50,628 nt of DNA from a virus: positions 1 to 50,628 of IMG/VR virus record IMGVR_UViG_3300028146_000013, one strand, 5' to 3'. Position numbers and translations under genes: made by a program. The first letter of the stretch is position 1; the number at the start of each line of letters is the position of its first letter. The notes beneath the pieces are model-generated. The model was not told the DNA's origin. It saw nothing but the letters and a program-made list of their open reading frames with translations, and did no database searches. Positions 3,510 to 39,917 of the stretch are shown piece after piece.

Positions 3510-4583
3510 ATGAAATCAGGATTATCAATTACCGCCATGGCCGCCGAGCTAGAGCGGCAAGCCAATGCAAAGCGCGATTTCATCGCAGGGACCCAACAGG
3601 TTGCTATTCGCGAGGATAGCTCAATGGCTATTGTCCTACCGGACACGGCAGTTGAGTTTGGGACCAACGCGATATTCCGTCGCCAAATGGCCGAGCACTA
3701 CAAGATCCCTCACGAGTACATCGAACGATTGCGCACGATGGCTGCGTTCAAGCCGCTGTTCGCCCAAACGTTTAATGACCATCTGCAGAAGCAACCTTCA
3801 CGACAGATGATTAGGACCCTAGACAACACAGCGCGGGCCTTTAGGTCTGATCGATTCCGGCCCCTGGATAACATCGACCTTGCAGAGTCAGTTCTCCCGG
3901 TAGCGATGGACTCAGGGGCTGAGTTGGTGAGTTCGCAATTCACTGACTCGCGTTTCTATATGAAGTTCCTGTTCCCCAAGCTTGAGATTGAAGTTAAGAA
4001 GGGCGACGTGGTTCAACTAGGGCTTGCGCTGGCTAACAGTGAAGTAGGCATGGGGGCTCTAGTGGTTGAGCCGCTCATTTACCGTCTGGTGTGTCTCAAC
4101 GGCATGATCATGCCTGACTACGGCCATCGCCGTTATCATGTCGGGAAAAAGGCTGAGGAGTCTGAGTTAGCCTATGAGATGTACAGTAACGAGACTCGCC
4201 AGCTTGACGATGCCGCGCTATTCGCTAAGATCCGCGACACCGTTAAGGGGCTGTTGAACCGCGATGTCTTGGAGACCATCGTGGCAAAGATGCGTGACGC
4301 TGCTGATCAGCCGATTGAAGGCACCAATATCAACGGGGTAGTTGAGGTGCTGGCGAAGAAACTGAACTATGGCGAAGGTACGAAGCACGGGATTCTCAAA
4401 CATTTGATCATGGGCGGCGACTTGAGCCGCTATGGGCTGATGAACGCCATCACCCGGCAGTCGCAGGACGAAGATGACTATGATGTGGCGACCAAGATGG
4501 AGCACGATGGGGCGCGGGTGATAGAACTCCCGCGCAATGATTGGAAGCAGATAGCCAGCGCAGCGCTGGAAAAGGCTGCTTAA
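3510..4583 (+). CDS. DUF932-like phage/plasmid protein
   Basis: A 357-aa soluble protein. The central part (about 90-230) carries a beta-rich segment with RAFRSDRFRPLDN, SSQFTDSRFYMKFLFP and LVCLNGM, the pattern of the DUF932 / YfjQ-like family found on plasmids, phages and genomic islands. The C-terminal third is helical. Biochemical role unknown; family members sit beside RadC/YeeS-like genes on mobile elements, as here. AAGGAG precedes the ATG. Transcribed alone between two hairpin-bearing gaps, so it may be expressed strongly. Confidence 0.75.
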   Translation: MKSGLSITAMAAELERQANAKRDFIAGTQQVAIREDSSMAIVLPDTAVEFGTNAIFRRQMAEHYKIPHEYIERLRTMAAFKPLFAQTFNDHLQKQPSRQMIRTLDNTARAFRSDRFRPLDNIDLAESVLPVAMDSGAELVSSQFTDSRFYMKFLFPKLEIEVKKGDVVQLGLALANSEVGMGALVVEPLIYRLVCLNGMIMPDYGHRRYHVGKKAEESELAYEMYSNETRQLDDAALFAKIRDTVKGLLNRDVLETIVAKMRDAADQPIEGTNINGVVEVLAKKLNYGEGTKHGILKHLIMGGDLSRYGLMNAITRQSQDEDDYDVATKMEHDGARVIELPRNDWKQIASAALEKAA

Positions 4584-20094: not shown

Positions 20095-22257
20095 TTAGAG
20101 GTTGCCCTCTGAGATCCAATCGGTTCCAAGGATGTTTGAAGAACTGCTAGTGACCCGAGCCCAGCCTTTAGCTGTCGCCGGGGTAACGCCGAGATGGATA
20201 GCCCGGTCACCAATCGTCCAAGTCCCAGCAGTTGGGACACTAGAGAAGTTCTGTTCGATGTTGCAGCCTGTCCCGGCGTTATTGATCAAGCTCGCAGATG
20301 CCCCGGTGGTCAGGTTCATCTCTACGGTCTTGTCGATGAACGATCCAGTGCAAGTGCCTGAGCTTTGGAAGCAAGTCGTCGGGCCAAGGATCTCGCCGCC
20401 TGTGATGTTAACCCCGGTGCAGCCGTTGAGCAACAATCCTACATTGAGGTTAGAGGTAAATATCACTCCGGAGAAGCAGGCCGTGATGATGGCGTTTAGG
20501 TTGGCGCAAGCGGCAGTGCCTGAAGCAACGACTTGCTTGAACCGGGTCCCGCTCGCATTCACGTTCGTGATGTTGAACCCACCGACCTGGGCGGCTTGCC
20601 AAGCTATCCCGGTTCCCGTGATGTCGATGGTGTAGTTGCCGCCCGTGAGAGTCAGGTTCTGCAGGTTGCCACTGGTCGCCGAGGTAAAGAGTGCCGCGCC
20701 AGTCCCGTAGTGGACCACGTTGTTATCCGCTAGAAGCACGTTGTTGAGCCCGCCCGCGCCTGAGATAACGCTAATGCCCGATCCGGCCATCAAAGCTCCG
20801 CCAACCTGGGTGCCGTTGTTGCTCGAAGGCATGGTGACCGAGTTACCTATGACCGTGTAACCGCCTAGCCCTGACGTGGGCCCGCCGCTAACTTGAATGC
20901 CGTCGCCCTGACTCATGCGGCTAACAGTGTTGCCAATGATCGACACGGGCACCAAGCCCGTAGCTACTCCACCCGCGCCAATACCTGCAGGTACCAAGGT
21001 GCGGGTCCGGGTGTTGATGCAGCAGTTCTGCACAGTATTGCCGTGGACTTGCGTTCCGCCGATCCCTGCACCGACCAAGTAGATCCCCGCTCCGGTAGTC
21101 TGGGCCGGGTCGCTGATAACCCCGTCGAGTCCTCTAGCTCCTATGATGTTCTCAACTTGATTATCATAGAATCGATTGAAGGTATCTACGCTTCCAGACC
21201 CTGCGCCGGGCAGGTAGAGTAATAGCCCGTAGGTTGTGTGAGCGCCAATTCGGTTGCCCTGAACTAGATTGCGAAACGGCAGGCCGCTGCCGACCGTGGC
21301 GAATTCGTCAAGGATCTGAACTCCGTAGCCGCCACCCCCGTAGAAGTCGTTGTTGACGATGACGTTGTAGGAAGGCGCGGCGGTTCCACCACCGTTGCCG
21401 CTATAGATACTAACATCTCCCCCAGTGCCCGCCTGGAGGCCATTGAGGATCTTCTCTTGGGCCCCTGAGAACCAGTTGTTGTAGATCGTGTTGTGGTTGG
21501 CGGCTCCATTGAGCCAAACCCCCGACCAGACGAACCCATTGAACAAGCAGCGATCCACAGTGCAGTTCGAGGAGTTTAGTAGCTGAACGCAGCCGTAGGT
21601 GGAGGTACCAGTGGTGGGCGGGAGGATATTGACCTGGAAGTTCGTGAACCTCGCGCCTGTGATACCGCTGCAGAGGAAGTTGGTCATACCGCCGTTAGCC
21701 CACTGGAAGATCGTATTCCAGCCATCGCCTATGATCATCTGGTTGGTGCCGACGCTAAAGGTAACGGAGAACTTGTAGGTGCCTTGAGGACCGTAGACAA
21801 CGGAACTAGACGCCAGGGCTCCGACCATGGCGGGCGATGAGTCAAGGATGCCGGTAGGATCGGCTCCGTAACGGAGGAGATTGCCTACTCCGTACTGGAC
21901 GTGCAGAGTGCCGGTGGTGAACCCGGCCGCGATCTCGGCGGGAGTGGCGACGGGGCTCGGATTAATGGCGACCTGGGCCGCTGCAACCGCGACAGGGACG
22001 GCGGCGGCGACCGCTGCGGCTTGAGTAGTGCCGCCGAGATTCGTCAGCGCAGTGGCCGCGTCTGTGGCCGACGTGCCGCCCTGTGTGATCAGAATAGGCA
22101 GCGCCCCCGCGTTACCGAGGCCGAGCGCCGCGAGCGCTTGGGGGACCGTCTGCGCCCCATTCAGCACAAAGTTACACGTGACATCGATCCCATTCAGCCA
22201 TACCGACTTGATCGGCGGGGTCTGAAACGGCTTGAAGTTTTGTGGAGTGAAAGCCAT
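20095..22257 (-). CDS. Tailspike with right-handed beta-helix
   Basis: A 720-aa protein. An N-terminal head (1-110) with Ala-rich helix is followed by RYGADPTG, the typical start of pectate-lyase-like phage beta-helices, and then regular N/G/V-rich turns (for example NHNTIYNNWF, NLVQGNRIGAHTT, PVSIIGNTVSRM) up to about 600. The C-terminal 90 residues are a beta-rich cap. Such spikes bind and often cut host surface polysaccharide. No catalytic residues can be assigned by eye. Confidence 0.8.
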   Translation of the reverse strand: MAFTPQNFKPFQTPPIKSVWLNGIDVTCNFVLNGAQTVPQALAALGLGNAGALPILITQGGTSATDAATALTNLGGTTQAAAVAAAVPVAVAAAQVAINPSPVATPAEIAAGFTTGTLHVQYGVGNLLRYGADPTGILDSSPAMVGALASSSVVYGPQGTYKFSVTFSVGTNQMIIGDGWNTIFQWANGGMTNFLCSGITGARFTNFQVNILPPTTGTSTYGCVQLLNSSNCTVDRCLFNGFVWSGVWLNGAANHNTIYNNWFSGAQEKILNGLQAGTGGDVSIYSGNGGGTAAPSYNVIVNNDFYGGGGYGVQILDEFATVGSGLPFRNLVQGNRIGAHTTYGLLLYLPGAGSGSVDTFNRFYDNQVENIIGARGLDGVISDPAQTTGAGIYLVGAGIGGTQVHGNTVQNCCINTRTRTLVPAGIGAGGVATGLVPVSIIGNTVSRMSQGDGIQVSGGPTSGLGGYTVIGNSVTMPSSNNGTQVGGALMAGSGISVISGAGGLNNVLLADNNVVHYGTGAALFTSATSGNLQNLTLTGGNYTIDITGTGIAWQAAQVGGFNITNVNASGTRFKQVVASGTAACANLNAIITACFSGVIFTSNLNVGLLLNGCTGVNITGGEILGPTTCFQSSGTCTGSFIDKTVEMNLTTGASASLINNAGTGCNIEQNFSSVPTAGTWTIGDRAIHLGVTPATAKGWARVTSSSSNILGTDWISEGNL

Positions 22258-22260
22258 GAG

Positions 22261-22578
22261 CTATCCTAGTGCAGGCGGAGGTAGGATCGTAAAGCGATCA
22301 GGGATAGAACAGTCAGGAATAGCGTAGTCAGGGATAGCCGATGAGCCATTGAAGTCACAGAACAAGGTGTACTGATCGGTCTCCTTCTGAGCCCACGGCA
22401 CACTCATAATGTCCGGTACCGCCCGTACAAAGTCCTGGGGCTGTCTAGCCTCGTTGTGTTCGGGGCAACGGTAGAGACCTTGCCAGTTGCGGACCATGGT
22501 CGAAGCCTTGCGCTTCCGCCCGCACATAGAGCAAGCTGCGTTCCAATCACCTAGCTCAAAGTAGTCAGCCCTTCCCAT
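22261..22578 (-). CDS. Conserved zinc-ribbon phage protein
   Basis: A 105-aa protein with CSMCG (17-21) and CPEH (about 39-42) in the frame W.GL.RC.EHNEAR.PQDFVR. This is a common small protein beside head and tail genes of podoviruses, with no known role. The ATG at 22578 follows AAGGGG; it overlaps the PurD-like gene by 14 bases. Confidence 0.7.
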   Translation of the reverse strand: MGRADYFELGDWNAACSMCGRKRKASTMVRNWQGLYRCPEHNEARQPQDFVRAVPDIMSVPWAQKETDQYTLFCDFNGSSAIPDYAIPDCSIPDRFTILPPPALG

Positions 22579-23863
22579 AGCGCATCCCCTTAGCGAAGCC
22601 ATAGGCTTGAAGTAGTGGAAGCTGGTCTTTAAGTCGCTTGCCTATGTCAGTGCGGCACATCACGTTGGAGGGCCACGATATACCATTGATGACTTCGTAG
22701 GCCGCTAGTCTAGCAGCCTCTACCGTGGGTCCCGCGCCCGTAGCCACCAAGTTGTAGGTCCCAGCGGTAAGAATGCGCTTACCCTCAAGCCCAAGAGCCT
22801 TGCCCATCTTCACTTGCTGGAAGTGGACATGAGTCATGTCCTCGACTCCGCTGATCGGGTAGCCCGTCCAATCCTCTGCGGGATCGCCGGGAGTTCGGGG
22901 GAAGTCCCCGTGGGCCATAACCACCCCAACCACGATATCAGTAGAGACCTCTAGGGAGTCAGTGCCCATCAGTAGGTCAACCATCCACTCTAAAGGATCG
23001 CCTTGCAGGACCTCTTGGCGGATGCAGAAGTCGGGCCAGCCGAGGCGCATGGTGAATTCTAGGGGCCAGGGCTTACCCTTATCATCAACGATACAATTGA
23101 CATTGCAGTCACCAACAAAATTGACGAGATGAAGATAGTCCGTTAAGGGGGCTAGCAACAGGTCAAAGAGTTTGGATTCCTTGACGTGCCGGATAACCGT
23201 CCCCATCTCGCCGGTGTTCCCACCGTAGTCGTCGTTCATGAATTTCTTGTGCTCAAAGGCTTCTTCTTTCCATGACGACCAACCGCCGGGACCGAAGAAC
23301 CCGGCGATGCCAATCTCGGTGCCCTCTACGCATTCCTGCATCATCAACTGGCCCTTGAAGAGACCTTCTTTTTCCCACCGAGAGAGTGTGAAGATACCTT
23401 CCTCTGGTGTCTTAGCTACGAAAGTCATTGCCTTGTCGGCGGCTCCGCCCCAAGGTTTAAGGGCAAAGGGCTTACCGGACTTGGATAGTACGTCGATGGC
23501 TTCCTCTGCTGAGTCTACTATTTGGTAGGGAAGTGTATCGATTCCGTAATACTCAAGTACGGCTTGCCCCTCGCCGCGATCTAGTTCGAGTTCGGCTGCT
23601 TTGGGGTTAGTCCCCATGATCGGGTAGCCTTTATCAAAGCATTCTTCGAGACCCTTGGGGTAGTCGCAGTTGCCGGTTAGGATAACCAAGTCGGCCCACT
23701 CCATGGAGGGCTTCCAGTCCTTCGGCTTCTCCACTAACCCATCACCCACGGGATGCTCTTTGGCGAGCCAATAGCGAACTTGGTGGCCCGCCTCCATAGC
23801 GCGCAGCGCTATATCGAGCGCACAGCCTTCGTCCCCGCGCATGTCCATCACCAGGAGGTTCAT
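22565..23863 (-). CDS. PurD-like ATP-grasp ligase
   Basis: A 432-aa protein related to phosphoribosylamine-glycine ligase (PurD), which joins glycine to phosphoribosylamine in purine synthesis. Seen: ALKPWGG (134-140), QECVEGTEIGI (176-186), EHKKFMNDDYGGNTGEMG (204-221), LEFTMRLGWPD (268-278), and the PurD C-terminal RTDIG (404-408). The length matches PurD. Departures: the N-terminal GGREHAL loop is replaced by MRGDEGCAL, and the metal-binding Asn of EFN.R is Thr271. The gene sits among ejection and spike genes, ATGA-coupled to the ejection protein. It may boost purines late in infection or ligate an amino acid to another substrate. Confidence 0.8.
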   Translation of the reverse strand: MNLLVMDMRGDEGCALDIALRAMEAGHQVRYWLAKEHPVGDGLVEKPKDWKPSMEWADLVILTGNCDYPKGLEECFDKGYPIMGTNPKAAELELDRGEGQAVLEYYGIDTLPYQIVDSAEEAIDVLSKSGKPFALKPWGGAADKAMTFVAKTPEEGIFTLSRWEKEGLFKGQLMMQECVEGTEIGIAGFFGPGGWSSWKEEAFEHKKFMNDDYGGNTGEMGTVIRHVKESKLFDLLLAPLTDYLHLVNFVGDCNVNCIVDDKGKPWPLEFTMRLGWPDFCIRQEVLQGDPLEWMVDLLMGTDSLEVSTDIVVGVVMAHGDFPRTPGDPAEDWTGYPISGVEDMTHVHFQQVKMGKALGLEGKRILTAGTYNLVATGAGPTVEAARLAAYEVINGISWPSNVMCRTDIGKRLKDQLPLLQAYGFAKGMRYGKG

Positions 23864-26460: not shown

Positions 26461-27829
26461 AAGGAACCCACTTACCATCGATCAGAGCCATCTTATCGCC
26501 AGCATCATTAACCGCTATCTTCTCGGGCGTCTTCGCCCCAGTCAAAGTCTCCCGTAGCTTCCTCAACGATTCCCGGCTACTATCCTTGGTATCGAACGTC
26601 TTGCGACCTCTCGCAATCGTCTCAATCTCCTCCTGCTTGAGCTTGGAGAAGTACCCACCTTTATAGATGGGCTTCTGCACTAACCCTTGAAGCGTAGCCA
26701 AGTCAGACTCGAACTGGTGGGATATCTGTGCAGTATGTCTACCCAGCTTCGGGCCGACAAACTCTTCGACCTGCCGCACCTTGCCTAGACCGCCGGTTAC
26801 TTCAATGCCCGCAGCGTCTGCTTGGTCAAGGGTAGTGAGTAGCCGGTCGATCAAGTTAACCGCAGTCTCTACTTCAGCAGGAGCCTTCTTTGGGGCTGCA
26901 AGGTTTCTAAGATCCCCTCGCTCTTTCGCCTCCTTGTAAGCCTTATCAGAGGCAGCAGAGCGGCTCAAGCCTTGCTTACGATATTGAGCCGTCGATTCGG
27001 CAATCTTCTCAGCCACTGTAGCAGCGGCGGCTTTAGGAATCTTACCGCCTAGATCTGGGTCAGACTGAATACGATTGGTAGCGTCTGCTATGTCATCCTT
27101 TGAAGGGTTGAGATCATTTGCCCCGGCCTTGTCTCGATGATTCATTCGGTCCTTAATGTCTTTAGCTTCTAAAGGCATAAGGACACCGACTCTGTAATTG
27201 CGCTCTCTAGTCAAAGCCTCTTCAGCGGCTTTAGCCGCTTGAGATTGTTCGGTCAACGCCTTATCCTTCGCAGTCTGAATCCCCGACTGGAGCGCCTTCT
27301 TAAGCTCTGGCGTCCAGTGCTTCATTAGCTCGAAGATCTTCTGGATGTTGGGGTTCTTAGCTTCCTCTGGATAGAAGCTCTGGAACATCATCACCGCTTG
27401 GTCAGCCCCCTTTTGATCCTCCGCGCCGCCGAGGAGTTCCGAGGCGTGTTGGAGTTGCTGTAGCTGCACATCATTCGTGCGCTTCATAATGTTTTCATGC
27501 TGTTGAAGCATGAGGGTGGATCGCTCTAGAGTCTTGCCCCCTTCCTCGTACATTCCAGCCGCAACCTGCGCGTGACCGACTTGCTGCAAGTAGCCCGACT
27601 CCTGCACCAACCGCTCCGTGGGGTCCTGGCTACCCTTGGCGTTAATCCCGTTCATTACCTCCATCATCTTCTTCTGCTGATCTAGTAGCAGTTTGGACCT
27701 TTGAACAACGAGGTCCTTGTCCTTGATATCAAGCTGCGTCTCCTGCATCTTGAGGGGGAACATCTGCTGGCGCTGGGAATACTCCTGCCCAGCGATAGCC
27801 CCTTCGACAAAGCCGCCGAGATCAGCCAT
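26447..27829 (-). CDS. Internal virion / ejection protein
   Basis: A 460-aa, almost entirely helical and charged protein with Gln-rich coiled coils (about 15-60 and 100-140). No membrane span. It lies between the gp7-like protein and the large ejection protein, the place of P22 gp20-type ejection proteins. GGGGAG lies about 8 bases before its ATG, inside the previous gene's end. Confidence 0.65.
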   Translation of the reverse strand: MADLGGFVEGAIAGQEYSQRQQMFPLKMQETQLDIKDKDLVVQRSKLLLDQQKKMMEVMNGINAKGSQDPTERLVQESGYLQQVGHAQVAAGMYEEGGKTLERSTLMLQQHENIMKRTNDVQLQQLQHASELLGGAEDQKGADQAVMMFQSFYPEEAKNPNIQKIFELMKHWTPELKKALQSGIQTAKDKALTEQSQAAKAAEEALTRERNYRVGVLMPLEAKDIKDRMNHRDKAGANDLNPSKDDIADATNRIQSDPDLGGKIPKAAAATVAEKIAESTAQYRKQGLSRSAASDKAYKEAKERGDLRNLAAPKKAPAEVETAVNLIDRLLTTLDQADAAGIEVTGGLGKVRQVEEFVGPKLGRHTAQISHQFESDLATLQGLVQKPIYKGGYFSKLKQEEIETIARGRKTFDTKDSSRESLRKLRETLTGAKTPEKIAVNDAGDKMALIDGKWVPYDGR

Positions 27830-28424
27830 GGGCTGGCGCTCCCCAGCTAGTGAAGTCGTTAGACGGTGGAGGCGCCATATACTGTCCTGATGGCGTTATC
27901 GGGTCTAGACCATAATTGGGATCGCCGCCCGAAGGCTGATTGAACATCCCGCTACGTCCTGCAAAGGTCATACCCGCAAGCAATTGCTGTAGCGACTGGT
28001 TAGACGCCGACTGCGCCCCCGAGGCTACATTAAGGCTCTGCGTGGGGTTGACGGGGGATGTTAGCCCTGCGAACTGGCCCAGTAGCTGGGCTTGGGTCTG
28101 GTAAACGTTCGTGGCATAGTCCTGACCGTACTTGGTCAGGGCAATCGCCTCGTTGCCAGAGCCCAAGAACCCGCTTCCCGCCATCTGCCTAGCCACAGCT
28201 TGTTCGCCCTGCTGCTGGTTGAACTTGTAGCCAGGGAGGCTAGTGACCGAGCTTGGATCAGAGATCAGCTTCTGTAGCATCTGGGCGTACTGTTGCTGTT
28301 CGCCAAACACCGTTGCGGATTGACTCTGAGCCTGATGCGAGATTCCGTGTTGCTGGGACATCTGATAGGCGCTCATGCCTAGCCCAACAACCCCTACTAC
28401 TCCGGCTGTTACGGCTCCACTCAT
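27822..28424 (-). CDS. gp7-like DNA ejection protein
   Basis: A 200-aa protein with an N-terminal hydrophobic Gly/Val stretch (AGVVGVVGLGMSAYQM), then a Gln/Ser-rich helical body and a Pro-rich tail. This matches P22 gp7-type ejection proteins (about 200-230 aa), which form part of the periplasmic channel. It overlaps the next gene by 8 bases and is ATGA-coupled to the SET gene upstream. Confidence 0.7.
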   Translation of the reverse strand: MSGAVTAGVVGVVGLGMSAYQMSQQHGISHQAQSQSATVFGEQQQYAQMLQKLISDPSSVTSLPGYKFNQQQGEQAVARQMAGSGFLGSGNEAIALTKYGQDYATNVYQTQAQLLGQFAGLTSPVNPTQSLNVASGAQSASNQSLQQLLAGMTFAGRSGMFNQPSGGDPNYGLDPITPSGQYMAPPPSNDFTSWGAPAHG

Positions 28425-29215
28425 GCGGCTAACCTCCTATCGTATAGAACACGATAGTCAATGGTGATCTCGTCGCCAGCGAGAATGCGAGAAGTAGCTA
28501 CCAAGTCCATGTGATCCCGCTCGCCCACGAACTTAGCGTTGGGTACGAAGGAATGATTGGTGTAGCGACCGGCGGGAGTGCGTTTGAAGGCGCGCATCGC
28601 AGGAGCGATGAACTCTCCGGGGTAGAAGCCTTTAGAAGCTATAACCCCTTTACCGCTAATCGGAGACTCTTTAATCTCCACTCCGTAGTCTTTATCGAAC
28701 TCGATTACATCGCTATCGTTCTCAAAGAAAGGTCGAACCTTTTCCTCGTCAACCCCCCGCTCGATGAACATCTGGCGGTAATGAAGTTGCTGGCCTAGTT
28801 TCAAGACCTCCTCCGCACTCTCGAAGATGTCGGCGGTCATCCCTGCTACGTCACGGCACTCCGCCACGTTCGGGTGGATCGTCCGGGCCAGGACATCCGT
28901 GATGGTGTAGACGACCATATGGTAGCCAGGGGTGGTGTTGACCTGGAGCGGTGCGTCAAGCCTGACCTTGCCATTGGGGCTAATCAGGATCAGCGACCCG
29001 CTGACTAACTGACAAGTGTGGCCGTAGAAGTGCCCTCGACCTACGAACAGTGTCCCTGCTGGTATCCGCATCTCCCTGATATAGACCCCCGGAGCAAAAA
29101 TATGCTCGACGGGCGTCTCGTTCTGAGGCATTAGGGATACCTGATAGGCCACATAGGCAACCTTCTCCTTCCACGTTAGAACTTCCGGTACCTTATCCCA
29201 CTGTTCAACATCCAT
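28421..29215 (-). CDS. Cupin-SET fusion protein
   Basis: A 264-aa protein with two parts. Residues about 38-118 look like a cupin barrel (PGVYIREMRIPAGT, GHFYGHTCQLVSG with His62/His66). Residues about 178-256 form a SET methyltransferase core: ISGKGVIASKGFYPGE, then NHSFVPNA (220-227), the S-adenosylmethionine site, and GDEITIDY with Tyr254. The usual SET insert is short and no cysteine-rich pre- or post-SET region is present. SET proteins transfer methyl groups to lysine. It lies between neck and ejection genes, TAATG-coupled. It may methylate a virion or host protein, or be a structural reuse of the folds. Confidence 0.75.
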   Translation of the reverse strand: MDVEQWDKVPEVLTWKEKVAYVAYQVSLMPQNETPVEHIFAPGVYIREMRIPAGTLFVGRGHFYGHTCQLVSGSLILISPNGKVRLDAPLQVNTTPGYHMVVYTITDVLARTIHPNVAECRDVAGMTADIFESAEEVLKLGQQLHYRQMFIERGVDEEKVRPFFENDSDVIEFDKDYGVEIKESPISGKGVIASKGFYPGEFIAPAMRAFKRTPAGRYTNHSFVPNAKFVGERDHMDLVATSRILAGDEITIDYRVLYDRRLAA

Positions 29216-29436
29216 TATGATGCCGCCGTTTGGGCCACTACGACCCCGTTTTGAAAGGTGATAGAACCGTTAGAGCCGCCCGAGGTTAGCTTAGCGGTGG
29301 CGATTGTGCCGGTAAAGCCTTTACCTAGAAGGATGTTAATCCGGTTGAACCAACCAAACCAACCTAAGGTAAACACCCCAGCGTGGCCTTCGACCGGCGG
29401 CTGCGCTCTTGGCGGGATTGTGCTGGTCTGACTCAT
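29215..29436 (-). CDS. Small conserved neck-region protein
   Basis: A 73-aa protein with a Pro-rich start, an aromatic motif GWFGWFNRIN, and a beta-rich Gly/Ser C-terminus (GSNGSITFQNG). Small proteins with this tail are common beside P22-like neck genes; role unknown. Overlaps the gp10-like gene by 4 bases. Confidence 0.6.
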   Translation of the reverse strand: MSQTSTIPPRAQPPVEGHAGVFTLGWFGWFNRINILLGKGFTGTIATAKLTSGGSNGSITFQNGVVVAQTAAS

Positions 29437-30947
29437 AGCGAACCGATGTCCAGTTGCATCCCCGCTGTCTTGATCCTAAACCGGGTGTTGCATCGATGCC
29501 GCAGATGGTACGCCCGCTTCGTGAAGGTGCCCTCTTGGTCAATGAATGGCTTGTTGTCGTTGAGATCCACTGTACGGAAGTTCGACCAATCCTTATAGTC
29601 GTTATCCGAATACCTCGCCTGCATTTGACTACCCGGCGTTTGATCGCTGGTGAAGTATAGCGCGTTAAGCACCTTGCGGCGGTCTGTTCCTGCAGTAAAG
29701 TTCGGGGTATAGATATCGACCGGGAACAAGACCCCCATGTCGTTCGGGAACACCGTGTCGGCGTCGATCAGATAGATGCTTCCGGGGAGCGAAGTCCCAG
29801 GGAGAGCCTGAGCTATATGGAGACCCTTGCTCGTCGGCGTCGGCGCGATGTAGGAGCAATTCGACATCGGCCAGTAGTTGCCGTTGGCGTCGGTCCATTG
29901 ATACCACAGCTTCTGATCGATGTCATAGACCAGGGTGAAGTTCAGCGACGTATGGGTGATCCCATAGAAGCGATGGCCCTGGTGCTTGAACGAGAAGCTA
30001 TAGAGAGTGTTATCGTTGACCGTGGGGAACCCAATTCGATGGGGACCGCCAGGTAGAATGTTGATCTGCAGGTTGTCTAGCATCCTGTCAATCGATGGAG
30101 TCGATATGATCTTAGGCGCCAAGTTCTCCATCATAATGACCTGAGGGGAGATCGTCTGATTAGATGAGATCCAAAACAGAATCTCATCGATCTTCTGGAT
30201 CGAGTTGGCATGGAGACAGCCGTAGGGGATCTGAGCCTCTGGAACCTGACCGAGCGGTGACCCCGTTGGGTTAAAGGCGTCGTAGAAGATCTGGGTCGTC
30301 CATTGCTTGAAGGCCACCACGAAGGTTAGCTGGGTGAACAGGGCTACGCCAAGGTCGCCCTTGGACGAAGCGAAGATCAAGCTTAGTGGGTCCCAGACCG
30401 AGGCGTCGTTGAACCCTAAAGTACCATGAATACCTCCACTGAAATCCATCACATAAAGCGTGCCGTCTAGATAAGCCCAACCAGGGCAAGTGAAGTCAGG
30501 GAAGTTCGGATCGGTGATCTGGGTTAGCGTCTGCGCTGTGGGATCTAGAATCGCCGCCCCGCTGGTGTTCTTAATCACCACCGTTTGGGTCGGGCTGCTA
30601 TTGATCGTTTCAAAGAAGAACTGCGGGGTAAGCACGGTCGGAGGGACGAAGTTAACAACGGTCCCCACAAAGGAACTGTTAATATAGACATCCTGGCCTA
30701 CCACCGAGATCACTTGGTTGTTGGACGAATAGTAGTAGACTCCGCCAGCCTGCCCGTTGGGCAAGGTGAACTGAGGCGTCGGGCTAATCCCCACCCGCTT
30801 GTTGACCCAGTACTCATTCTCTGAATCTTTCTCTGCGAAGGCGTTGACTAACCGGGCATCCTTGGTTATAGGGATATCAGAGCTTCGAGTGTAGAATTGC
30901 TGCACCAACGGCCAGCGTTGGGGCATTGCGACGGTTTGAGCTGGCAT
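29433..30947 (-). CDS. gp10-like neck / packaged-DNA stabilisation protein
   Basis: A 504-aa beta-rich protein with repeated blade-like strands (GGVYYYSSNNQVISVVGQD, YSFSFKHQGHRFYGITH, VYDIDQKLWYQWTD). Its length (P22 gp10 is 472 aa) and its place right after the gp4-like gene match P22 gp10, the tail hub that plugs the portal. Shares its first base with the gp4-like stop (TAATG overlap). Confidence 0.75.
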   Translation of the reverse strand: MPAQTVAMPQRWPLVQQFYTRSSDIPITKDARLVNAFAEKDSENEYWVNKRVGISPTPQFTLPNGQAGGVYYYSSNNQVISVVGQDVYINSSFVGTVVNFVPPTVLTPQFFFETINSSPTQTVVIKNTSGAAILDPTAQTLTQITDPNFPDFTCPGWAYLDGTLYVMDFSGGIHGTLGFNDASVWDPLSLIFASSKGDLGVALFTQLTFVVAFKQWTTQIFYDAFNPTGSPLGQVPEAQIPYGCLHANSIQKIDEILFWISSNQTISPQVIMMENLAPKIISTPSIDRMLDNLQINILPGGPHRIGFPTVNDNTLYSFSFKHQGHRFYGITHTSLNFTLVYDIDQKLWYQWTDANGNYWPMSNCSYIAPTPTSKGLHIAQALPGTSLPGSIYLIDADTVFPNDMGVLFPVDIYTPNFTAGTDRRKVLNALYFTSDQTPGSQMQARYSDNDYKDWSNFRTVDLNDNKPFIDQEGTFTKRAYHLRHRCNTRFRIKTAGMQLDIGSL

Positions 30948-36219: not shown

Positions 36220-36466
36220 CATCGAAACTTTGGGTAAACTGCTCATAATCTTGCTCGATTAACCTCGTTAGTTGTCTAGATTCGCCTAATGCCTGTGCGT
36301 TCGCTACTGCGCATTCTTGAGGATCTTCACGCTGGAACTGCCCCGCCGCCCATTGCTCCATTAAGTCCTTGCGCCATTCCACCAGCATCTGGTGATACAT
36401 CTGACTCACCGGATGGGCCTTCCAGTCTAGGTACATCTCCTCCGTTGGAATTACCTTTATCTCCAT
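36161..36466 (-). CDS. Small head-region protein overlapping the portal gene
   Basis: A 101-aa protein (IPTEEMYLDWKAHPVSQMYH..., then a helical EWRKDLMEQWAAGQFQRE) resembling small proteins found after portal genes in podoviruses. GGAG lies 7 bases before ATG 36466, supporting this start. The first 140 bases lie inside the 3' end of the portal gene in another frame, and its last 59 overlap the GroES-like gene, so almost two thirds of the gene is overlapped. Function unknown. Confidence 0.65.
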   Translation of the reverse strand: MEIKVIPTEEMYLDWKAHPVSQMYHQMLVEWRKDLMEQWAAGQFQREDPQECAVANAQALGESRQLTRLIEQDYEQFTQSFDDEEYIRPPSSGKGGSGKAD

Positions 36467-38456
36467 CTTTAGCTCCGCTTGTGATTGCCTTGATTCGATC
36501 ACTTATCTGCCCGTGGTAGGTCTCGAAGGCTTTGATAGCGACCTCAAAAGCTTTCAACTGCGTTGAAGCCCGGTCAGAGCCGATCTCGGCGATGAGCTTA
36601 GCCGCCTGGGCTTTGAGTAGCTCAATCTCTGCCTGGACCTTCGGGACTTCCATCAGTAGCTCGTTAGCCCACTTGACCTTCTCAGCCTCGATCTGCGCTT
36701 GCTTGCCTTGCAGCTTGACCTGTTCGACCATCATCTTCGGGTTCGGAAGCGGCTTGGCCTTCTCCTCGCCTAGATAGAGCCGATCCACGTTCTCTACCTT
36801 CATAGCCTTGAGCCATCGCCGGTTGGCTTCTTCTCGATCATAACCCGGAGAAGTGTGCGCCCTTTGCCAAACCGCTTCGGCTTGGAATATTTGCATCGTG
36901 GTTGACGTGATGTTCGGGTCGGCGACTGGGGCGATTTGATCAACATTACCGGTATAGTCCTCCCGTCGAATGAAGTCGTTCTCAGCGCCGAAGGTCTTGT
37001 GGCTCAACAGGAACTGTTTGTTGAGCTTATAGAGCTTCTTAAACTCCTCCCGCATCGACCTCCAGACCCGCTTGAAGATCATAGAGTAGACCTTCATACC
37101 TTGCTCGGTCATGGACCGGGAGGTTTCGGCGGGTGTGTTCTGCCCAGGGCTTTCGCCGACCATGGTTTCGGTGGTACCGGCGAGACGGTCGGCGTAGGTA
37201 ATCAATAGCTCGATCAACTGCAGGGTGACCGCTAAGGGTTGTCTTTCGGGAAACGGAACGAGGTTCTTCCGTAGGTCATCACCTGTTGAATCGACACGCT
37301 TCCATTCCCAGGGGGCCATGGAATAGACTCCACCTCGTATTTTGGACCCTCTACCAAGGAAACCGCCGATGGAATTTTGGAACGTTCCAGAATCCAGAAG
37401 CTGATTGATTGCCGTAGATACCGCTTCGTTGATAGGCCCGAGAAAGGCTCCGAATCCCAAGTCATAAATACCTCCATCCGGGGATGGAATAAACGAATAC
37501 TTGGTGAAGTACTCTTCAGGGGTTATCCGCCGAATCGCGTTTCGGGATCGCTCCACCCCACCCTCATCAAACCGGGCGACAAGACGTACCACACTCTGGG
37601 ATGATTCTTCGATGGTGACCGTATATGGCTCCGCGTAGCCGTCGCCGTCGAGGTCAAAGAACCTGTGCTGTTCCAGCATAGTGAAAGCACTATCATCGTC
37701 GCGAAGCGGAGGCGGCGTGGAACCCTTGCGGACATCGGCCTGTGATCGTTCAACTCCTGCGTTAGTCTGAGTTGCAGGAGTCTGAAACCATCCATCATCC
37801 CTAATGTTGGCATAAACGCCTTCCTCTATCCTTTCCCAGATATCGTTCCGGTACATGGGGATAATGTGGGTCTTTCTAGCTGCACCGGCAGTGGATTTAG
37901 CCCAATAGTCCAGTACCAAGTCCCTAGACATGACCAATTCACTAACGTTGTGGCCGAGGCTTCCGCTGAAATAGGTTTTGACGAAGGCGGAACCCACGAC
38001 AGCGAGGTTGATAAGAAGACGATCATGCTGTTCCTCCCAACTCTCGTCCTCTTCGAGGACCTGCCAACTCATATGGCGCTGAATACGCTCCGCCCGCTTC
38101 ATCACTTCGCCTTTCGGGTCGGCGCCAATCACCCGGTAGCGAACCACGTCGGTCCCCTGGATAATCGCGGGATAGGACCGGGCGCTAAATTGGAGCGCGG
38201 CGATGGTGATGAGGGGAAAGATCACATTCGCCGCCCCTTGCCAGGGGAAATTCTTGTCCTTGGCGATCTGCATAGCGAGATCCATCGCCGCCGACATCCG
38301 ACGTTCCCAGGGAGTCCGCGATTGCTTGTCGGCCAGATAGCCATTGTAGGTCTGCTTGCCGAGAATTCCAAGATCTTCCTTGCTAAACCGGTCGCAAAGG
38401 TTTGGCGCCATGATCAAATCACGGTTGATGACTAGCTTTTTAGACAGAGTGAGCAT
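36327..38456 (-). CDS. Portal protein (P22 gp1-like)
   Basis: A 709-aa portal, close to P22 gp1 (725 aa). Helical N-terminus (NPWQG-like FPWQGAANVIFPLITIAA at about 69-87), beta-rich middle, then the long helical crown (MVEQVKLQGKQAQIEAEKVKW) and a Gly-rich end. Twelve copies should form the head vertex through which DNA is packed. It directly follows the terminase stop (TAAATG). Its last 47 codons share bases with the next gene in another frame. Confidence 0.85.
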   Translation of the reverse strand: MLTLSKKLVINRDLIMAPNLCDRFSKEDLGILGKQTYNGYLADKQSRTPWERRMSAAMDLAMQIAKDKNFPWQGAANVIFPLITIAALQFSARSYPAIIQGTDVVRYRVIGADPKGEVMKRAERIQRHMSWQVLEEDESWEEQHDRLLINLAVVGSAFVKTYFSGSLGHNVSELVMSRDLVLDYWAKSTAGAARKTHIIPMYRNDIWERIEEGVYANIRDDGWFQTPATQTNAGVERSQADVRKGSTPPPLRDDDSAFTMLEQHRFFDLDGDGYAEPYTVTIEESSQSVVRLVARFDEGGVERSRNAIRRITPEEYFTKYSFIPSPDGGIYDLGFGAFLGPINEAVSTAINQLLDSGTFQNSIGGFLGRGSKIRGGVYSMAPWEWKRVDSTGDDLRKNLVPFPERQPLAVTLQLIELLITYADRLAGTTETMVGESPGQNTPAETSRSMTEQGMKVYSMIFKRVWRSMREEFKKLYKLNKQFLLSHKTFGAENDFIRREDYTGNVDQIAPVADPNITSTTMQIFQAEAVWQRAHTSPGYDREEANRRWLKAMKVENVDRLYLGEEKAKPLPNPKMMVEQVKLQGKQAQIEAEKVKWANELLMEVPKVQAEIELLKAQAAKLIAEIGSDRASTQLKAFEVAIKAFETYHGQISDRIKAITSGAKDGDKGNSNGGDVPRLEGPSGESDVSPDAGGMAQGLNGAMGGGAVPA

Positions 38457-39917
38457 TTAATAGCCTGTAGTCGAGTTACGCCCAGAGTTCTGTCGATAAA
38501 TAGCCCCTTGGCGGGCCATTTCTAGGTCACCTTCATCGATTGCGTCCTCGTCATCGACCTCAGGAGCCTTGTCAATGCCCAAAAAGAGCGTCGCGGTGGA
38601 GTCGAATTGGTCATCGAGGGTCGCTTCGGAGTCCCCAGTGAACTTCATTACCTCCTCATGGTAGCCAGCATACCACTCCGCGCCCTTGTTGAACCTGATT
38701 GCTCCTGCCCGATGGCGCTTTTGGAAGGTCCGGCCCCGAGTTTTCTTGTCTGTGATCGGCGTGAGGACCTGAAAAGAGATGAACTTGTCCCTAGCGAACA
38801 TCTCTTTCACGAGCATAGGCTCAATCGCCTTCCATATTTGACCACCCTCCACATAAAACACATCGATATTCCAGCGTTGTTGTACGCTGAATAGCTCCTC
38901 AACAATCTCCAGAGAATCCCAACGCCCGACTCGTTGGTCAATGATATTAGTGAAATTACCGAGATCCTTGCCACCGATGGTGATGGATGACCGATTCGCA
39001 GAATCCTTTTTGGAGATTGCAAAGTCCACCCCCGCGTAGAAGGTCATGAACTGCTCAAAGTGCTCCGGCTTCATCGGAAGGAAGTCTTGCTCGCGCAGGT
39101 AAGACTCAGCGTTGTCCCGAGGATCGTTGAGATACTCTTGGGAGTAGCCCGCAGCGTCGCCTTCATCGACCATCTCTTTCTGCTTAGCCCGAAGACGAGC
39201 TTCTGGGAACTTCTCAGGCCAGAGAAGGTCCTCGAACTCCGTGAAGGACTTGTGGGCCTTGTAGAGGCGCGAGTGCCAGGCGTTGTTCTTCATCAATCGA
39301 CTGAGGAGAGAGTCCTCATGGAGAATGGTTCCATGAATACGAATAAGACCTCCGTCCCTGAGGGCCTGCTTACAGGCTCTAAAGAACCACTGGCGGAACT
39401 TCTTCCTTCTATCGACATTGACCACCTGTTCATCATCTTCAAGATCGTCGCCGATAATGAGACCAGGGCGGCATCCGTTCCACTTCCTGCCTCTAATCTT
39501 CTGTTCCGCGCCTCTAGCAATGATTCTAAACTGATGACCATCGACGCACTCCACGATGATATCGGTTTTCTGGTCAACCAAAAAGCCCTTAATCTTGAAG
39601 TCTCTGATGAGATCGTCGTTCTCTCTAAGCTCATTAGCGATGTCGTTGAGATGCTCGATAGCCATCTCTTCGCTCGCCCCGACGATAATCACGTAGGTTT
39701 GGGCCCTAAAGAGCACATTGGCGAGGGTGTAGTCGTGGGTCAAGGCTGTGGACTTGGCATGGTTACGAGGAGCGGCAATCGCACAGGCTTCCCAGGGGGA
39801 GCAATAAAGCGCCCAGCATTCCCGATGGAACTCTGGGGTGGGACGGGGAGTATCGTAGCGAGGGCTCAGGTAGACCCCTGAGAGTGACTCAACCAAGTCT
39901 GAGGTAAGCTGAATCAT
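38457..39917 (-). CDS. Terminase large subunit
   Basis: A 486-aa terminase. ATPase: Walker A APRNHAKST (49-57), Walker B GLIIGDDLED (152-161). Nuclease: FYAGVDFAIS with Asp298, and later acidic residues (DDQFDSTATLFLG) as metal ligands. It cuts and pumps DNA into the head through the portal. Length is usual (about 480-500 aa). It is ATGA-coupled to the repeat protein before it. The small subunit is not adjacent but 10 kb upstream, see 50046-50606. Confidence 0.9.
   Translation of the reverse strand: MIQLTSDLVESLSGVYLSPRYDTPRPTPEFHRECWALYCSPWEACAIAAPRNHAKSTALTHDYTLANVLFRAQTYVIIVGASEEMAIEHLNDIANELRENDDLIRDFKIKGFLVDQKTDIIVECVDGHQFRIIARGAEQKIRGRKWNGCRPGLIIGDDLEDDEQVVNVDRRKKFRQWFFRACKQALRDGGLIRIHGTILHEDSLLSRLMKNNAWHSRLYKAHKSFTEFEDLLWPEKFPEARLRAKQKEMVDEGDAAGYSQEYLNDPRDNAESYLREQDFLPMKPEHFEQFMTFYAGVDFAISKKDSANRSSITIGGKDLGNFTNIIDQRVGRWDSLEIVEELFSVQQRWNIDVFYVEGGQIWKAIEPMLVKEMFARDKFISFQVLTPITDKKTRGRTFQKRHRAGAIRFNKGAEWYAGYHEEVMKFTGDSEATLDDQFDSTATLFLGIDKAPEVDDEDAIDEGDLEMARQGAIYRQNSGRNSTTGY

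Follow-up and report, generated by a model that had tools for sequence, protein, structure and literature searches.

Proteins with a SET domain are known from viruses, including giant viruses and PBCV-1, whose vSET (A612L) is a chlorella-virus H3K27 methyltransferase that takes a histone of the eukaryotic host as its substrate. In SET enzymes the SAM site is bordered by the GxG and NH motifs, catalysis depends on the last tyrosine, and in canonical members SET-I helps to form the peptide groove. To our knowledge, protein lysine methylation has been little studied in phages. The protein described here, a cupin fused to a SET domain (cupin-SET), comes from a phage. Like vSET, it is a minimal viral SET with GxG, NHSxxPN and ExxxDY-type motifs, but vSET possesses no cupin and has a longer stretch between GxG and NHS. 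The best matches of cupin-SET, by sequence profile as well as by fold, are SET domains of the KMT2/MLL type, which differ in possessing the SET-I and post-SET parts missing from cupin-SET and in their chromatin enzyme context, of which the phage protein has none. Uncharacterised SET entries for uncultured phages exist in the viral structure library, and phrog_34170, a family without an assigned function, matches nearly the whole of the fused protein (E 1.8e-31). No paper on a phage cupin-SET family was found in the open-access literature searched. As far as that literature shows, three things are new here: a phage SET family that lacks most of SET-I but has an invariant core, the coupling of its gene to ejection genes, and a cupin whose SET and GNAT partners are exchanged.

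Other known systems resemble cupin-SET in gene position or in the cupin. T7 gp13 (PF11090) and P22 gp14 (DUF2824) are small late proteins encoded, as is cupin-SET, just before the first ejection-protein gene, but they are not homologous to it and possess neither a SET domain nor a cupin. T7 gp13 (gene 13; L096, 3308-3724) is annotated as an internal virion or scaffold protein. P22 gp14 (gene 14; L097, 5912-6367) lies directly before gp7 and contains a GNAT-like stretch, LPEIRGFSKEIGLAFW. Homologous cupins are found in phrog_12032 / PHA00672, labeled 'short tail fiber protein', with members in the phages VvAW1, BA3, VPMS1 and X14 and in Bordetella phage BPP-1 (bbp23). In the first four of these phages the cupin gene precedes a DNA-ejection gene, as cupin-SET does, but proteins of this type carry no SET domain. 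In BPP-1, a gene for an amine-modifying enzyme, bbp24, is tied to the cupin gene by overlapping frames; this system differs in that the enzyme is an acetyltransferase, the two genes are separate, and the pair is located between the terminase and portal genes.

The window analyzed here is the whole stretch of 50,628 nucleotides of IMG/VR virus record IMGVR_UViG_3300028146_000013, and its source virus is a short-tailed phage. The cupin-SET gene, identified by its open reading frame, Pfam and PHROG matches and an AlphaFold2 model, encodes 264 amino acids on the minus strand at 28421..29215, while the plus strand across the same positions is interrupted by stops. It is transcribed after the head closure gene Hc3 (29433..30947, minus; P22 gp10-like, phrog_578 E 4.5e-28) and a small ORF of 73 amino acids (29215..29436, minus) that is kept in a few relatives, and before a gene for a gp7-like DNA-ejection protein of 200 amino acids (27822..28424, minus; phrog_598 E 6.6e-4), which is followed by more large ORFs. 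The portal (36327-38456) and terminase (38457-39917) genes belong to the same strand block. As read from the sequence, the stop of the 73-aa ORF and the start of cupin-SET share a TAATG overlap (29213..29217, minus), and the last cupin-SET codons (28421..28440, minus) contain both the AGGAGG ribosome-binding site of the ejection gene and a 4-nt ATGA stop/start overlap with it. The minimal SET domain comprises residues ~175-255 (28451..28693, minus), with GKG at 188-190, RTPAGRYTNHSFVPNA at 212-227 and DEITIDY at 248-254, and the cupin, a double-stranded beta-helix, residues ~31-125 (28841..29125, minus). The initial annotation, which was made from the DNA sequence, had the exact coordinates of the gene, its GKG, NHSFVPNA (220-227) and DEITIDY motifs, and its placement between neck and ejection genes. 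The fusion it described thus stands, but it overlooked the minus strand, the absence of most of SET-I, the breadth of the family and the pairing of the cupin with GNAT enzymes.

The SET half is matched by Pfam PF00856 with an E of 3.7e-9 and 37.4 bits, against a curated cut-off of 22.4, and all 58 aligned relatives match the same domain (E <= 0.01). An AlphaFold2 model of cupin-SET built on 58 aligned sequences has a mean pLDDT of 91 and a pTM of 0.73, and Foldseek supports both halves of it; in the viral library the matches are cupin-only phage proteins together with SET proteins of phages and giant viruses. Residues 172-255 of the model superpose on the SET domain of MLL1 (Z 11.6, 2.5 Å over 79 residues, 29% identity). 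For PBCV-1 vSET the superposed residues are 175-254 (Z 11.1, 1.9 Å over 80 residues, 34% identity), and EZH2 and SET7/9 are also among the SET-fold matches at Z 11-12. The SET knot and SAM pocket were judged by superposition and motifs. Structure prediction had been set as a check in the initial annotation, and the predicted fold, superposing as it does on MLL1 and vSET, makes it almost certain that the protein contains a SET fold with intact motifs. The earlier suggestion of a phage protein methyltransferase appears to be the natural reading of a predicted SET fold with intact SAM and catalytic motifs encoded in a late morphogenesis operon. The further suggestions of that annotation, a virion-borne protein and the modification of capsid, ejection or host proteins, are conjectural.

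Cupin-SET is a widespread family, with several hundred loci in IMG/VR. Searches with tblastn recovered eight phage records with one place covering most of the protein, some of them duplicates of one genome; these relatives include zth2-2, Rhodoferax phage P26218, Pseudoalteromonas phage PH1 and uncultured Manatee Spring phages. Scans of IMG/VR found at least 321 relatives by one pattern set and 385 by another, and 80 of each were taken. Among the 190 loci with a domain match, 164 were fused, 24 were cupin-only, one had separate genes and one had SET only. Several loci were re-cuts of one contig, leaving 127 distinct fused proteins for comparison. By contrast with these viral loci, ~85,000 bacterial and archaeal genomes gave only six, mostly MAG contigs and a Paraburkholderia genome. 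In a Comamonadaceae contig (L094, 7851-8417) the same mini-SET is a stand-alone gene, and no cupin was detected in that locus. A tree of the cupin mixes fused and cupin-only proteins and forces at least three changes, but it is based on few columns and gives no direction, whether gain or loss. A GDLC-like C-terminal tail present in some cupin-only and fused proteins was considered as evidence of SET loss and dropped, since the gene that follows may have its ribosome-binding site within those codons.

Across the 127 distinct fused proteins, whose SET identity has a median of 52% and a minimum of 30%, S184, G188, G190, R212, T213, R217, N220, H221, E249 and Y254 are invariant. D169, G216, P225 and N226 are nearly so, and D253 is found in 117 of the 127. 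Together with the fusion of most loci, this invariant core places the match far beyond chance. The loci had been collected by patterns that contain some of the conserved residues, and the proteins were for this reason split by search pattern: the 30 without the EITIDY-type (DY) pattern all kept E249 and Y254, and the 10 without the GRYxNH pattern all kept R217, N220 and H221. The conservation of the SET core survives this search bias. The SET half is also under purifying selection, with a dN/dS of ~0.03-0.15 that is like that of the cupin half for the pairs where it was computable (for the window against L001, dS was saturated). By homology, residues of this core can be assigned putative roles in the SAM site and as the catalytic tyrosine.

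The cupin-SET domain is an unusually small SET. The spacing from G190 to N220 is 29 residues in all 127 fused proteins, while in alignments the stretch from GxG to NHS is ~51 residues in vSET and ~63 in KMT2B, and it follows from this comparison that most of SET-I is absent from a family that keeps SET-N and SET-C. Only ~8-20 residues follow Y254, with no post-SET or C-flank part that would close the active site, and no tyrosine is conserved at +4 across the 127 fused proteins. With SET-I mostly absent and no post-SET domain, the lysine channel would have to be completed some other way, and this absence is the strongest reason for caution on activity. Since these features are lacking and the activity is putative, cupin-SET is classed here within the SET superfamily (PF00856) but kept apart from the canonical SET lysine methyltransferases. 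Even so, the conserved core makes it fairly probable that the protein is an active methyltransferase.

The N-terminal half is clearly a cupin barrel according to the model, in which residues ~31-125 superpose on many cupins with Z 10-11. Pfam gave no match to this half of the window protein, and Cupin_2 was weakly matched by five of the 58 relatives. R60, H62, H66 and G73 are spaced as in motif 1 of cupins (G-x5-H-x-H-x3-E-x6-G); positions 60, 62 and 66 read R-H-H in the window and HQH or HHH in most relatives. The set of metal ligands from motifs 1 and 2 is incomplete, and the motif-2 histidine is not conserved across the family. A complete set is a mark of metal-dependent cupin enzymes and not of the cupin fold itself, so the incomplete metal site favors binding over catalysis by the cupin. 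A role as a 2-oxoglutarate dioxygenase or demethylase was ruled out, the ligand set being both incomplete and variable.

The cupin half is also the source of the database label. By itself it matches phrog_12032 and phrog_24280 (short tail fiber and tail fiber adhesin; E 2.8e-24 and 7.2e-18), which would make cupin-SET a receptor-binding part of the virion, and the homologue in phage X14 is annotated as a 'structural gene of unknown function'. This is a very unlikely reading. The predicted fold is that of a cupin and not of a fiber, a conserved methyltransferase core would be unexpected in a fiber, and the label leaves the SET half unexplained. The short-tail-fiber label itself appears to have been propagated: the VvAW1 paper gives the homologue only as hypothetical PHA00672 (PMC3558961). 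No virion proteomics or structural data for any homologue were found in the literature searched. The label is unsupported and probably misleads.

The same cupin occurs alone, with SET and with GNAT. Cupin-only homologues precede the ejection gene in many phages, at the place taken by cupin-SET. In the T7-like phages Sphaerotilus R1 and Variovorax VAC_51, a cupin-only gene lies between the position of tail tubular protein B and the internal virion protein gene, which is the place of gene 13 in T7. A SET domain was not found elsewhere in the genome in any of 13 cupin-only phages. In a prophage-like locus of Paraburkholderia ferrariae, cupin and SET are two overlapping genes. As in BPP-1, where bbp23 overlaps the GNAT gene bbp24, the cupin gene of a Manatee Spring phage (MW202722) overlaps a GNAT gene. 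The same overlap was seen in 15 of 15 IMG/VR contigs that could be judged, in that the upstream gene was readable, and every GNAT of these contigs retains the RxxGxG/A acetyl-CoA loop; the contigs were found with the BPP-1-type cupin and represent one branch, not a random sample. The loci with this overlap, BPP-1 included, are L303 (23173-24092), L306 (3552-4462) and L308-L323. In addition, the model of T7 gp13 has a GNAT fold (pLDDT 93), with acetyltransferases as its best matches; this likeness came from the fold, the gp13 profile having no match among PDB sequences. Unrelated amine-modifying enzyme folds thus recur with this cupin and in the pre-ejection gene position, and the case for an enzymatic function guided by an adaptor is built chiefly on this recurrence.

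The same comparison bears on whether the SET fold could be a relic, in a morphogenesis factor whose two halves bind or provide structure and help the ejection proteins to fold and load without any enzymatic activity. The absence of the SET-I and post-SET parts would fit such a protein, as would the many phages that manage with cupin-only versions and T7 gp13, whose alignment lacks the RxxGxG acetyl-CoA loop in spite of its GNAT fold and equivalent gene position. A relic would be expected to drift, yet the GxG motif, N220-H221, E249, Y254 and their spacing do not vary among the 127 proteins, and the acetyl-CoA loop is retained in the GNATs with which this cupin is paired. A non-enzymatic role is for these reasons regarded as rather unlikely, though less so than the tail-fiber reading.

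With an enzymatic role preferred, the next question is the target. The start of the downstream gene overlaps the cupin-SET stop or lies within a few bases of it, and the 4-nt ATGA overlap is the most frequent arrangement (56 of 121 cases). Translation of cupin-SET is usually coupled to that of the first ejection-protein gene. With profiles from the window, gp7-like homologues were detected in 52 of 72 loci and Hc3 in 53 of 72, many of these loci being short contigs. The gp7-like neighbor has no lysine conserved family-wide. Its lysine content is lower in SET-bearing phages (2.3% against 3.6%), but this tracks the genome background and therefore gives no substrate signal. For both reasons, the gp7-like protein is rated low as a target, and the adjacent ejection protein is an improbable substrate of the putative methyltransferase.

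A target outside the phage has also to be weighed. Intracellular bacteria and giant viruses have SET enzymes that modify host proteins, and by analogy cupin-SET could be a late or injected effector that methylates a host protein of translation, transcription or defense. The gene has been retained for long in the late operon and coupled to the ejection gene, late expression being read from its position, and the cupin-GNAT versions are likewise found among head genes. Both points argue against an effector, which is considered an unlikely explanation. For a phage morphogenesis protein as the target in place of a host protein, the chances seem about even.

The function proposed here is that of a late phage SAM-dependent protein N-methyltransferase, in which a cupin adaptor brings the SET core to a phage protein of the same operon. 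The non-catalytic cupin half would dock on an assembly intermediate of the head, neck or ejection apparatus, and the SET half, stripped down but with an intact core, would methylate an amine, most likely a lysine. The first candidate would be the co-translated gp7-like protein, followed by other parts of the ejection or neck complex. This complete scheme is tentative, falling slightly short of an even chance, and the cupin-only phages without SET and the position of the BPP-1 pair away from the ejection genes count against the methyltransferase reading. Doubtful, but of wider reach, is the idea of an interchangeable module of short-tailed phages in which the cupin adaptor, joined to a methyltransferase devoid of SET-I, accompanied by a GNAT acetyltransferase or acting alone, modifies or guards amines on a head, neck or ejection protein, methylation and acetylation being alternative solutions to one assembly problem. 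The unchanged key residues of the 127 distinct relatives suggest that many phages may chemically modify a protein during particle building, and this opens the question of post-translational modification as part of building the ejection machine. For such work the cupin-SET family, which occurs in hundreds of short-tailed phages from the environment, would supply one defined enzyme, a small number of substrates to try and two phages in culture, P26218 and PH1. Its SET scaffold, smaller than vSET, would be useful for asking what SET-I does, and a cupin that switches between SET and GNAT partners is a natural experiment.

Three other genes of the window may be mentioned. Directly after the ejection genes lies a gene for a PurD-like ATP-grasp protein of 432 amino acids (22565-23863, minus), an odd metabolic gene for a late operon; the protein matches PF01071 and PF02843 above cut-off and TIGR00877 with an E of 6.5e-26, but under the equivalog cut-off. 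A protein of 720 amino acids (20095-22257, minus) matches a right-handed beta-helix and is a probable tailspike. A protein of 357 amino acids encoded at 3510-4583 on the plus strand has a match to DUF932.
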